Assembly: GCA_013375355.1 (NCBI GenBank)
Contig: JABXJV010000054.1
Coordinates: 1-41,553, forward strand
Origin: Candidatus Helarchaeota archaeon
Lineage (GTDB): Archaea > Asgardarchaeota > Lokiarchaeia > Helarchaeales > JABXJV01
Length of the DNA stretch: 41,553 nt
Direction of reading: 5' to 3'
In this document: positions 20,901-36,479 of the stretch, piece after piece
How the letters are laid out: every line of letters begins with the position of its first letter
Position numbering within the stretch: the stretch's first letter is position 1
Made by a program: the position numbers and the translations under genes
Notes under the pieces: model-generated
Databases searched by the model: none
What the model was told of the DNA's origin: nothing
The model's input: only the letters and a program-made list of their open reading frames with translations

Positions 20901-21189
20901 GTGCCCTACCCCTGACTTCCGTCAGAGATTCCAAATAGGAATCTAAGGGCACCAGACTTAGTTATAAGAAATTGTAGCTACGATGGATTGGTCATGACAC
21001 CTTCGGTTGCCGCCCCAGACTGAAGCTCTGTCGTTCGTGTTTAAAAGTCCTAAAGGGTTGTGGACAGTGATACGGACATAATAAGCCTTTTCATCATTGT
21101 CGAGGGGAAGACGGATTCCTCACTTGGTAACAGGGTAAGGATACGCACAACCCGTCCTTGGACGGAGGATTTATCCGAAAGGATTTTTT
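20901..21189 (+). ncRNA. IscB omega RNA (HEARO RNA)
   Basis: About 290 bases directly upstream of and co-directional with iscB, much richer in G+C than its surroundings. The 5' end folds as a three-way junction: stem GTGCCCT (20901-20907) with AGGGCAC (20946-20952), enclosing hairpins CTGAC-TTCC-GTCAG (20912-20925) and GATTCC-AAATA-GGAATC (20927-20943). The 3' end has CCGTCC/GGACGG (21152-21165) and a GNRA hairpin ATCC-GAAA-GGAT (21173-21184) running into six Ts just before the iscB ATG. Position, orientation and multi-stem form match HEARO/omega RNA, in which the guide is at the 5' end, here just before 20901. The exact ends are not defined. Confidence 0.85.
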
Positions 21190-21194
21190 AAAAA

Positions 21195-22436
21195 ATGGTA
21201 TTTGTAATTAATAATGATGGAAAGCCCTTAATGCCGTGCAGCAATGTAATTGCCCGGTTACTACTCAAGCAAAATAAAGCGAGAGTGGAAAGGGTAACTC
21301 CTTTCATCATTAAATTGTTATATCAGCTAAAGATAGTATATCTGCAAAAATTAAACCTTGGACTTGATTCTGGGAGTCGTATTATTGGTTCTGCGGTATC
21401 GGATATAGATGGTAATATACAATATATTTCACAAATAGAAGTACGTAATGATATCACAAATAGAATGAATAGAAGGAGAAATTATCGACAATTAAGACGT
21501 AATCGGAAGTGTCGTTATCGAAAATGTCGATTTTTAAACCGTAAAAATTCAAGAAGGAAGTTACGATTTTCTCCAACAATAAATAGTAAGATTAACACCC
21601 ATCTACGAGAAATTAAATTCGCTGAAAAAATATTACCAATTAATGACCTAATTATCGAGAATGGAACATTTGACCTACACGCCATTAGAAATCCAAGTGT
21701 ATTAAATAACCCAATATTATACCAAAAAGGATTAAAATATGGTTTCAACAATACAAAAGCGTTCGTTCTTCATCGTGATAATTATAGATGTCAATATTGT
21801 AAAGGTAAATCAAAAGATAGGAAATTACATTGCCATCATATTATATTTCGAGAACAAGGTGGAAGTGATAATCCTGAAAACTTAATTGTTTTATGTAAAA
21901 CTTGTCATTTGGCACTTCATGAAGGAAAAATCACGTTAAAAAAAAGTGGCTCTCGAAAGAGAGGATTGATGCATGCAACTCAAATGAATATTATAATAAA
22001 ACAATTATTTAAAAGAACAAACGCCAAAGAAACATTTGGTTTTATTACTAAGACACATAGGCAAGCTTTTAATTTACCAAAATATCATTTTATCGACGCA
22101 GCAGTAATTAGTACTAAGGGTAAACAACCAGACTTTAAAACCGATAAAATATTATATAAGAAGTGTATTCCGAGAGGTGATTATCAACAAACTAGGGGCA
22201 AAAGGAGTCAACAACATATAACCACTATGAAAATATGTGGATTTAGAAAATATGACAAAGTAAGGTATAATGGGAAAAACTATTTCATTAAAGGTCGTAT
22301 GGCTATTGGATATGCAATTTTAATGGATATTGAAGGACGTTCTCAACAATTGAAACCAATTCCAAAATTTATTAAGATGAAAAGGATAATTGCAAGAAAG
22401 TCATGGATAATGACCGAAAATTTAATCTTGATTTAA
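21195..22436 (+). CDS. iscB: IscB RNA-guided endonuclease
   Basis: A 413-residue IscB. The PLMP motif is at 11-14, RuvC-I GLDSGS carries D58, and an arginine-rich bridge helix spans about 88-125. RuvC-II LIIENGTFD has E155. The HNH domain has two Cys pairs (C199/C202 and C234/C237) around HCHH (212-215) and an asparagine in SDNPENL. RuvC-III KYHFIDAAVIS has H298 and D301. The C-terminal domain (about 330-413) fits the target-adjacent-motif-reading part. All catalytic residues of both nuclease domains are present, so the protein looks active. AAAGGA lies about 11 bases before the ATG. No TnpA transposase is nearby. Confidence 0.95.
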   Translation: MVFVINNDGKPLMPCSNVIARLLLKQNKARVERVTPFIIKLLYQLKIVYLQKLNLGLDSGSRIIGSAVSDIDGNIQYISQIEVRNDITNRMNRRRNYRQLRRNRKCRYRKCRFLNRKNSRRKLRFSPTINSKINTHLREIKFAEKILPINDLIIENGTFDLHAIRNPSVLNNPILYQKGLKYGFNNTKAFVLHRDNYRCQYCKGKSKDRKLHCHHIIFREQGGSDNPENLIVLCKTCHLALHEGKITLKKSGSRKRGLMHATQMNIIIKQLFKRTNAKETFGFITKTHRQAFNLPKYHFIDAAVISTKGKQPDFKTDKILYKKCIPRGDYQQTRGKRSQQHITTMKICGFRKYDKVRYNGKNYFIKGRMAIGYAILMDIEGRSQQLKPIPKFIKMKRIIARKSWIMTENLILI

Positions 22437-35411: not shown

Positions 35412-35518
35412 TGGAGCCTCTGGGGGGACTTTCAGGCTTTTATATAATTTTAGCCGCCTTTTGAACCCCCGACCATTGGCTTACAAGGCCAGCGCTCTAC
35501 CAACTGAGCCACAGAGGC
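35412..35518 (-). tRNA. tRNA-Thr(UGU), one T-loop intron
   Basis: Acceptor GCCTCTG/CAGAGGC, T73 and an encoded CCA. The D-arm GCTCAGTTGGTAGAGC and the anticodon arm CTGGC-CTTGTAA-GCCAA (one C-A mismatch) are uninterrupted. The only intron, 31 nt at 35429-35459, lies at T-loop 59/60 and fits a complete BHB: T-stem GGGGG/CCCCC as outer helix, central TTCA/TGAA, bulges AAA and AGT, and inner GGC/GCC. Splicing restores TTCAAAT. Confidence 0.93.
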
Positions 35519-35700: not shown

Positions 35701-35707
35701 GTATAAG

Positions 35708-35900
35708 TGGGGTCGAAGGGATTTGAACCCTTGATAAGTCCTCTGGATAAACTCGTATATCCAAACGAGTTACTCCTAGTGGTACGCTCCAAAATTACAT
35801 CATTTGGAATCAGTATTTTTTTTTAAAATTTTCTGGAGCCCGTTGTCATACCGAGATTTCTTCAGCACACGAAAGGTGAACCGATCTAGACCACGACCCC
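35708..35900 (-). tRNA. tRNA-Trp(CCA), three introns (D-loop, anticodon loop, variable loop)
   Basis: Acceptor GGGGTCG/CGACCCC, A73 with no encoded CCA, and T-arm AAGGG-TTCAAAT-CCCTT. The D-loop intron at 35852-35881 (30 nt) has central AGAT/ATCT and identical CGG bulges. The anticodon intron at 35771-35832 (62 nt, position 37/38) has a perfect BHB: stem ACGGG/CTCGT, central CTCC/GGAG, bulges AGA and TAA. Splicing gives CTCCAGA. It contains CTGA and ATGATG motifs resembling box D and box C. A third insert of 26-27 nt in the variable region (about 35738-35764) has the hairpin TGGATA/TATCCA; its removal leaves TTATC or CTTATC. Confidence 0.88.
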
Positions 35901-35923
35901 TTAATATTCAATATTTTGGGGAG

Positions 35924-36075
35924 GTAATAATATTTTACCGTGTTCGGAACGAGAACGGATGGTTCCATTGGCCTATGGCCGATCACGAATGATCAGCTAA
36001 CTGGATTTCTCGTTGGCTCTCGCACAACAGAAGTTCCAATAACGCACCAAATGTTTAATTCGGCATATTATTTCC
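35924..36075 (-). other. Terminal BHB processing helix flanking the permuted 5S rRNA
   Basis: The leader AATAATAT (36065-36072) pairs with the trailer ATATTATT (35926-35933). Next to it the central 4-bp helix CGGT/GCCG (35937-35940 with 36061-36064) is flanked by three-base bulges AAA (35934-35936) and AAT (36058-36060). This is the canonical archaeal bulge-helix-bulge. Cuts after the second base of each bulge fall at 35935/35934 and 36059/36058 and would let the ends be ligated into a circle. Confidence 0.85.
35935..36058 (-). rRNA. rrf: 5S rRNA, circularly permuted gene (predicted circular product)
   Basis: On the minus strand the 3' half of 5S (TTAAACATTTGG to GTTAGCTGATCA) comes first, then TTCG (35986-35989), then the 5' half (TGATCGGCCATAGG to CCGAACACGGTAA). 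Helix I is closed by the tetraloop as GCTGATCA-TTCG-TGATCGGC. Joining the outer ends at the BHB gives ACACGGTAATTAAAC, matching the usual 5S loop B region ACACGGAAGTTAAGC. The exon is 124 nt, that is 120 nt plus UUCG. Helix II (GCCAATG/CATTTGGT, one bulge), helix III (CCGT/ACGG with loop C containing CCGAAC), helix IV (GTTG/CAAC) and helix V (GGA/TCC) all form. It is the first gene of the RNA cluster. Confidence 0.93.
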
Positions 36076-36479
36076 TCTTTTTCTAAGGCGCCATAAATCT
36101 TTTCCGTCTTTATTAACCATTTTGTATAATTAAAATTTAAACTTCAATTTTTTAAAATTCTTAAGAATTAATTTAAAATTTTTCTCCATTACTTTTAACT
36201 TATTCTAAATTGAAATTTTATGTAAGATGTTGAACTAATAATTTATTATTTTCATCATATAACTTAATACTTGACGATTTCAAATGTTTGGAATAAAATC
36301 CAATGGTGTATTATTAATTTAATATTATTAGTTTATTAAAATAATTTAGAAAAATATTCATAAATTGATTTTGTATTCAAAAAATATATCTAAAATTTTG
36401 CTAAATTTGTAAAAATTAATAAAATTAGGTGAATTTTACAACACTATATAATTCAATAAAATAAAAACCGTGATTAAAG
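36073..36479. promoter_or_regulatory. Divergent AT-rich promoter region
   Basis: About 400 bases without a gene. On the minus strand an AT-rich TTTAAATTTTAATTATA near 36128-36145 could serve the RNA cluster. On the plus strand ACTATATAATT (36443-36453) lies about 30 bases before the ATG at 36480. Nothing else is recognised. Confidence 0.4.

Follow-up and report, generated by a model that had tools for sequence, protein, structure and literature searches.

Does the locus in which the two halves of a 5S rRNA appear in reversed order serve as the working 5S rRNA gene of its host, and would the RNA made from it be closed into a circle? The earlier note had proposed such a gene at 35924..36075 of the window, by which we mean the whole 41,553-nt stretch of Candidatus Helarchaeota DNA analysed here. 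These coordinates were correct, and the strand, which had been left unstated, is the minus strand. The permuted unit is 152 nt long, with its 5′ end at 36075 and its 3′ end at 35924, and the 5S gene proper occupies 36058-35935 with its halves swapped; read from its 5′ end, the unit consists of a leader, the 3′ half, a UUCG tetraloop, the 5′ half and a trailer (Table 1). It is near certain that this 5S rRNA gene is real and conserved, that it is permuted, and that a BHB frames it. In our best explanation, the permuted gene is the working 5S gene, its RNA would be excised at the BHB by EndA, the tRNA-splicing endonuclease, and ligation would then yield a circle; taken as a whole, we hold this explanation to be highly probable.

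The window contains only one copy of the permuted 5S, which stands upstream of a minus-strand run of tRNA genes with apparent introns. One of these tRNAs, at about 35412-35518 on the minus strand, has the anticodon TGT as judged by eye and an Rfam match without the T arm; about 30 nt seem to interrupt its T loop and are probably a non-canonical intron. A further likely tRNA, at about 35706-35900 on the same strand, has the acceptor strands GGGGTCG and CGACCCC separated by about 190 nt, was missed by ARAGORN and Rfam, and probably contains several introns, and more tRNA-like stretches are found down to about 34700. Elsewhere in the window, on the plus strand at 20901-22436, a HEARO RNA (117 bits) is followed by a 413-aa RRXRR + HNH protein, and we take the two together to be an IscB-like RNA-guided nuclease unit.

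Table 1. Positions of the permuted 5S rRNA unit and its parts, in window coordinates
Feature	Position	Strand	Basis or remark
TATA-like element ATTTATGG	36091..36098	minus	about 25 nt upstream of BHB leader start; candidate promoter
Distal leader strand, 4 bp	36074..36077	minus	pairs with 35921-35924 beyond one A-A mismatch
BHB outer helix, 5′ (leader) strand AATAATAT	36065..36072	minus	sequence and both-side changes in 46 chosen loci
BHB centre helix, 5′ strand GCCG	36061..36064	minus	BHB geometry
5′ bulge AAT	36058..36060	minus	predicted EndA cut 36059/36058; canonical BHB geometry
3′ half of 5S rRNA, 69 nt, encoded first	35990..36058	minus	R1 and R2 matches; alignment with linear 5S of the phylum
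UUCG tetraloop joining natural 3′ and 5′ termini	35986..35989	minus	caps helix I
Helix I under cap	35997-35990 with 35985-35978	minus	read from sequence
5′ half of 5S rRNA, 51 nt, encoded second	35935..35985	minus	R1 and R2 matches; the 27-bit RF00001 match fits here
BHB centre helix, 3′ strand CGGT	35937..35940	minus	one G-U in pairing with GCCG
Helix III of mature 5S	35941-35938 with 35958-35955	minus	recovered across loci
3′ bulge AAA	35934..35936	minus	predicted EndA cut 35935/35934
BHB outer helix, 3′ (trailer) strand ATATTATT	35926..35933	minus	pairs with leader strand AATAATAT

The claim that the 5S halves are swapped is borne out, end to end, by two covariance models in the rotated order, both built from 5S sequences of the phylum with the window excluded. 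The seeds of the first model (R1) are 21 of the 36 aligned matches to the linear model (RF00001) in the phylum, each rotated at the homologous point and given four N at the joined ends. One of these is a bad seed (L016, from genome G020), itself a rearranged gene, and the second model (R2) is therefore R1 without it, with 20 rotated linear 5S sequences. R1 matches the window at 35935-36058 over all 125 model positions with 73.6 bits (E = 2.8e-21), and R2 matches over positions 1-125 with 75.1 bits (E = 7.9e-19). The same gene in a relative (L001) scores 71.8 bits with R1, and the next among the matches listed reaches 7.3 bits in the 81 kb searched; with R2, L001 scores 73.3 bits and the next of the listed matches 7.4 bits. 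In its given order, the window has no match to RF00001 at the gathering cut-off of 38 bits, and permissive filters recover 27 bits, from the 5′ half only. When the RNA encoded by the window is put in the usual order, it aligns with linear 5S rRNAs along its length. Helix I, which had been described as perfect beneath its cap, is indeed fully paired, but perfect it is not, as it holds one G-U wobble. Among the caps, a bare UUCG occurs most often, in 25 of the 100 loci that could be parsed by script.

Upstream of the unit, all 8 bases of the TATA-like element ATTTATGG are kept in L001, and TATA-like words show only a mild excess at -40 to -59 among 106 distinct loci; as a candidate promoter of the permuted 5S unit, the element is suggestive only.

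The BHB was likewise borne out as canonical: the window has a 4-bp centre (GCCG/CGGT), bulges AAT and AAA of 3 nt each, and an outer helix of 8 bp, and in L056, which is the same gene as L001, leader and trailer pair over 13 bp without a break. We surveyed the flanks of 114 loci, taking one match from each and leaving out L085 (at a contig end), L001 (represented by L056) and the extra copies in L130, L157 and L159. A canonical BHB with at least five contiguous outer pairs is found in 58 of the 114, compared to 2.4% of 2257 pairings in which a locus was combined with another locus's 3′ flank. In a relaxed test, which allows the innermost centre pair to fail and leaves out L157-L159 (two linear genes and one with another break point), 71 of 111 loci qualify, versus 108 of 2200 swapped pairings. 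The 40 loci with fewer than five outer pairs in this test include lineages with 0-4; some of these poorly paired loci have internal loops, and L118, L137, L143 and their kin are truly weak. A repeated hairpin (like ATCTGGATGCGTTCCAGAT) stands directly before the BHB leader in L128, L135, L137 and their kin, all loci with a weak outer helix.

The outer helix has a mean of 6.14 of 8 pairs over 92 distinct flank pairs, which represent 108 loci (L157-L159, L146, L155 and L156 were left out), compared to 3.08 for swapped flanks and 3.52 for the highest of 200 shuffles; at least six outer pairs are present in 63 of the 92, but in only 7.2% of the swapped pairings. The flanking helices differ between loci and their pairing is nonetheless kept. 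In an alignment of 46 chosen loci, each of the 8 outer pairs varies at both of its positions, and leader and trailer covary among related genomes. For the structure as named, 81.3% of the cells in this alignment are paired, versus 55.4% after shuffling and 33.6-44.7% after sliding; by helix, the values are 69.0% for the outer helix, 73.9% for the centre and 98.2% for helix I under the cap. From the same 46 loci RNAalifold recovers helices I, II and III and the IV-V hairpin and not the outer helix, and the use of different registers by different loci may be why. The minimum-energy fold of the 152-nt unit contains the outer helix and lacks the BHB centre.

If each bulge is cut behind its second base, as predicted, 124 nt (36058-35935) would be released, made up of 69 nt, UUCG and 51 nt, and the window's joint after such splicing would read ACACGGTAA/TTAAAC (a slash marks the joint); both the length of this product and its restored loop B hold as first proposed. 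The same cuts, applied to the 71 better-paired loci, give CCGGAA/GTTAAG (19), CCGGAA/GTTAAA (12), CACGGA/AGTCAA (7), CACGGA/AGTTAA (5) and others. These predicted joints mostly match the 5S consensus CGGAAGUUAAGC, and an off-consensus minority includes CCCGGA/TTAAAC and CCCGAT/AGTTAA, at two loci each. Both the splice register and the break point vary between lineages. BHB registers lie about 1 nt apart between loci, yet the correct joint is mostly preserved; the register used by the window's group, with CGGTAA/TTAAAC, is the one furthest in. Such preservation across registers would be expected if selection acted on the ligated product.

We propose that transcription from an upstream promoter would yield a precursor composed of the leader, the 3′ half, the UUCG-capped helix I, the 5′ half and the trailer, in which the leader, the trailer and the last bases of the 5′ half would fold into the BHB. 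EndA would cut both 3-nt bulges to give the 124-nt RNA, whose two new ends would lie side by side in loop B, where an RtcB-type ligase would join them into a closed circle. The leader would leave after cutting, freeing the BHB-centre bases to close helix III. The centre strand CGGT (35940-35937) shares bases with the 3′ strand of helix III (35941-35938), and the BHB and mature helix III are therefore mutually exclusive; the BHB must either precede the mature fold or compete with it, a point that counts against our explanation.

Candidate enzymes are encoded in related genomes. EndA (PF01974) has two matches in each of the 8 related genomes, and two-subunit EndA accepts relaxed BHBs. RtcB (PF01139) is present in 7 of the 8 and was not found in G133, a 1.4-Mb assembly. 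At one locus (G091:C1:1674331-1677159), the RtcB match falls into two parts of a single 993-aa open frame, which probably contains an intein. From the sequences, it is very likely that the RNA is excised and closed into a circle, and likely that this circle is the ribosomal form of 5S; we infer transcription, cleavage, ligation and the presence in the ribosome of the circle rather than a re-opened form.

Several known RNAs share parts of this scheme. In two Thermoproteus species, the gene for SRP RNA, earlier thought missing, is permuted and its RNA is circularised via a BHB; EndA cleavage is shown, RtcB is inferred, and the circle is seen in RNA-Seq (Plagens 2015, PMC4731332). The window gene is of the same type, with swapped halves, fused natural ends, new ends in or near a loop, and a leader-trailer BHB, and by analogy the permuted SRP RNA is an RNA that works in the way proposed here for 5S. 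Unlike the Thermoproteus case, the permuted RNA here is the 5S rRNA of the ribosome, is encoded by roughly half of the phylum's genomes, and is predicted from sequence. Archaeal 16S and 23S, but not 5S, are often circularised via a BHB according to PMC12918454, which also notes reports of circular 16S and 23S transcripts for Asgard archaea. The 16S and 23S pre-rRNAs thus resemble the present case in being ribosomal RNAs that involve a BHB, EndA and a circle, although, unlike the 5S gene here, their genes are in the normal order.

Permuted tRNA genes, some of them archaeal, also involve a BHB, and their circle is re-opened at the acceptor end. They share with the window gene the swapped halves and a circular intermediate, as in Cyanidioschyzon (Soma 2007). 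Unlike in the permuted tRNAs, the natural ends of the 5S are fused by a tetraloop, and we see no mark of re-opening. The 5S genes of Halobacterium and Sulfolobus are linear. In both, 5S-derived circRNAs with variable ends are described, which the authors suggest to be part of 5S degradation (PMC12558985). These circRNAs derive, like the RNA proposed here, from archaeal 5S, and they differ from it in their variable ends. No earlier report of a permuted or circular 5S in Asgard archaea was found in the partial texts obtained from the open-licence PMC literature, preprints excluded, and one elsewhere is possible.

The circle might be made and later opened again, perhaps within the UUCG cap, to give a linear 5S with ends near the usual place. 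This alternative shares the EndA and ligase steps with our explanation and differs from it in the last step alone, and the odds of the two overlap. Re-opening of this kind has a precedent in the Pyrococcus 23S, which is reported to be circularised and then re-linearised by excision of helix 98 (PMC7758197, PMC12918454), and helix I, which bears the cap, is also the site of the natural 5S termini. The caps, however, are often short tetraloops such as UUCG, which are compact and would be hard to cut, and we consider a re-opened product unlikely.

If the leader and trailer were instead trimmed away and nothing were ligated, the permuted gene would yield a linear 5S whose termini fall in loop B. 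Permuted mitochondrial 5S rRNAs are made by such trimming and work as linear molecules with ends in loop B, and we know of no EndA or BHB that acts with them. These organellar genes, which like the window gene encode a 5S rRNA with its halves swapped, lend the trimming scheme a precedent (Valach 2014, cited in PMC10085705), but unlike the window gene they belong to organelle genomes. A nick in loop B might also be tolerated. Trimming does not, however, account for a conserved two-bulge BHB at the ends with a covarying outer helix, and it has no need for a register that mostly restores the consensus joint; we regard it as distinctly improbable.

The evidence from relatives points to the permuted gene being the cell's working 5S rRNA gene, a component of the best explanation, which as a whole has, in our judgement, a strong chance of being right. 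The pheS product encoded in the window shares 89% identity with its counterpart in Helarchaeota isolate LW55_61, which NCBI places in Promethearchaeati, a group that we take to be the Asgard archaea; by this neighbour, the gene is on an archaeal chromosome and is not of organelle origin, as the mitochondrial type of permuted 5S is. Isolate LW55_61 carries the same permuted gene (L001), with one substitution in 152 aligned bases. This sole substitution, at 35983, lies in helix I and changes A-U to G-U. Directly beyond the outer helix, L001 carries an insertion of 13 nt that the window lacks, and the aligned flanks of the two differ at 3 of 45 bases on the upstream side and at 10 of 46 on the downstream side; the surrounding 767-base alignment is 86% identical. 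A standard 5S gene elsewhere in the genome was sought in two relatives: RF00001 found no linear 5S in either Helarchaeota genome (0 of 2; G001 and G002), whereas it matches 11 of 14 control genomes, and R1 finds exactly one permuted gene in each of the two.

To count permuted genes across the phylum, we required at least 45 bits with R1 and state the linear matches alongside; these genome counts use R1 with its bad seed L016, and the window alone was rescored with R2. By this threshold, 115 of the 227 genomes of the phylum have a permuted 5S (103 at 50 bits or more), comprising 49 of 83 in the window's class and 66 of 144 in the rest of the phylum, a much broader distribution than the earlier note had envisaged. 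RF00001 matches 12 of the 83 genomes in the class (8 over the cut-off), 75 of the 227 in the phylum (64 over the cut-off), and 229 of all 392 relatives (218 over the cut-off); subtraction of the phylum leaves a linear 5S over the cut-off in 154 of 165 outside genomes. Thus, not all members of the phylum are permuted, as the 64 of 227 with a linear 5S over the cut-off indicate. Outside the phylum, R1 reaches at least 45 bits in 8 of 165 genomes, with a maximum of 55.9, and each of these matches overlaps a linear RF00001 match. A permuted gene with no linear match over the cut-off is found in 110 of 227 genomes inside the phylum and in 0 of 165 outside. A census with R1 at E ≤ 0.001 was rejected as too generous: it returns 70 of 83 genomes in the class and 196 of 227 in the phylum, including half-matches on linear genes, and by subtraction 140 of 165 outside the phylum.

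Five of the 115 genomes with a permuted gene also have a linear match over the cut-off (G031, G055, G124, G113 and G096). Those in G031, G055 and G124 adjoin bacterial 23S and were rejected as the genomes' own 5S, being probably contaminants; the one in G113 was rejected as a second gene, as it overlaps the genome's own permuted copy; and the one in G096 (L165) is a linear gene interrupted by an insert. G020, also counted among the 115, is broken at a different point. Neither form passes these cut-offs in 53 of the 227 genomes, and several of these, when read, carry permuted genes with inserts or other break points and lower scores. G008 and G010 were considered as partial duplications (1.5 copies), and their sequence reads linear. 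In the literature, 5S genes are reported in two assemblies of one Asgard paper (PMC9723677). Two tandem permuted copies are present in G137 (L130), and two dispersed copies on contig C1 of G091 (L117 and L118). In G001, G174, G084 and G166, which are permuted, and in G177 and G178, which are linear, no more than about 5 kb separates pheS from the 5S gene, with varying order and strand.

These counts bear on the possibility that the locus is a pseudogene, a decayed or transposed extra copy, and that the real 5S is linear and elsewhere, a view left some room by the fact that the genome-wide search for a linear 5S covered the relatives G001 and G002. A pseudogene would not be expected to differ from L001 by one base in a region that is otherwise 86% identical, to lack a linear counterpart in both relatives, or to belong to a state, permuted without linear, that occurs in nearly half of the genomes of the phylum and in none of the 165 outside it; we find this reading very hard to sustain. 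A misjoined contig that makes an ordinary 5S look permuted can be dismissed as extremely improbable, for although L001 and L002 come from metagenome assemblies and many contigs are short, the same structure recurs in many assemblies, including contigs of 3.33 Mb (G091), 2.27 Mb (G042) and 1.42 Mb (G174), with a shared break point and covarying flanks, and a misjoin would not create a BHB.

Variants of the gene bear on how the permuted order may have arisen. In L165 (minus strand of contig C117, G096), the 5S is linear, and 23 nt are inserted where the permuted genes are usually broken, AACACGGA/.../AGTTAAAC; the ends of the insert form a BHB (CACG-gaa-CAGTCT ... AGACTG-CGTG-aaa). This linear gene may come from another organism in the bin, since G096 also has a permuted copy. 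Other 5S genes are broken elsewhere, in frames that appear BHB-like by eye: L159 (G005) in the 5′ strand of loop B, and L146 (G020) and L179 (G043) in loop C. Several loop-B-permuted genes have inserts in loop C. More generally, inserts of very roughly 25-35 nt are seen inside the 5S in several places, loop C above all, in the permuted loci L052-L054, L067, L070, L071, L155, L156, L173, L175 and L178 and also in the linear L180 (G212). The inserts within 5S genes are probably further BHB introns. Together, the insert of L165, the other break points and the loop C inserts suggest an exchange between introns and permutation. For SRP RNA, permuted genes plausibly came from a variant with simple BHB introns, according to the report on Thermoproteus (PMC4731332).

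The distribution of the two forms was followed on a pheS tree of 91 sequences, one from the window and the others from 90 of the 208 genomes that gave a match; 48 were labelled permuted, 26 linear, 2 as having another break point and 15 undecided. Between the permuted and linear labels, 3 changes are required on this tree, which is single-gene and unrooted and has weak deep forks, and the permuted state is found in several well-supported and mutually distant clades. Considering these comparisons together, we think it reasonably likely that Asgard ribosomes commonly contain a circular 5S made via the tRNA-splicing machinery, that permutation and BHB introns interconvert, and that the permuted state is old.

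5S rRNA is near-universal and has been regarded as simple. Its permuted order may explain the seeming absence of 5S genes from many Asgard genomes, and the models used to search for 5S can be corrected for it. The phylum would also offer many natural examples of a stable RNA gene becoming permuted. If our explanation is true, the tRNA-splicing enzymes would help to make a third rRNA, and a circular 5S would stand inside the ribosomes of close relatives of eukaryotes.
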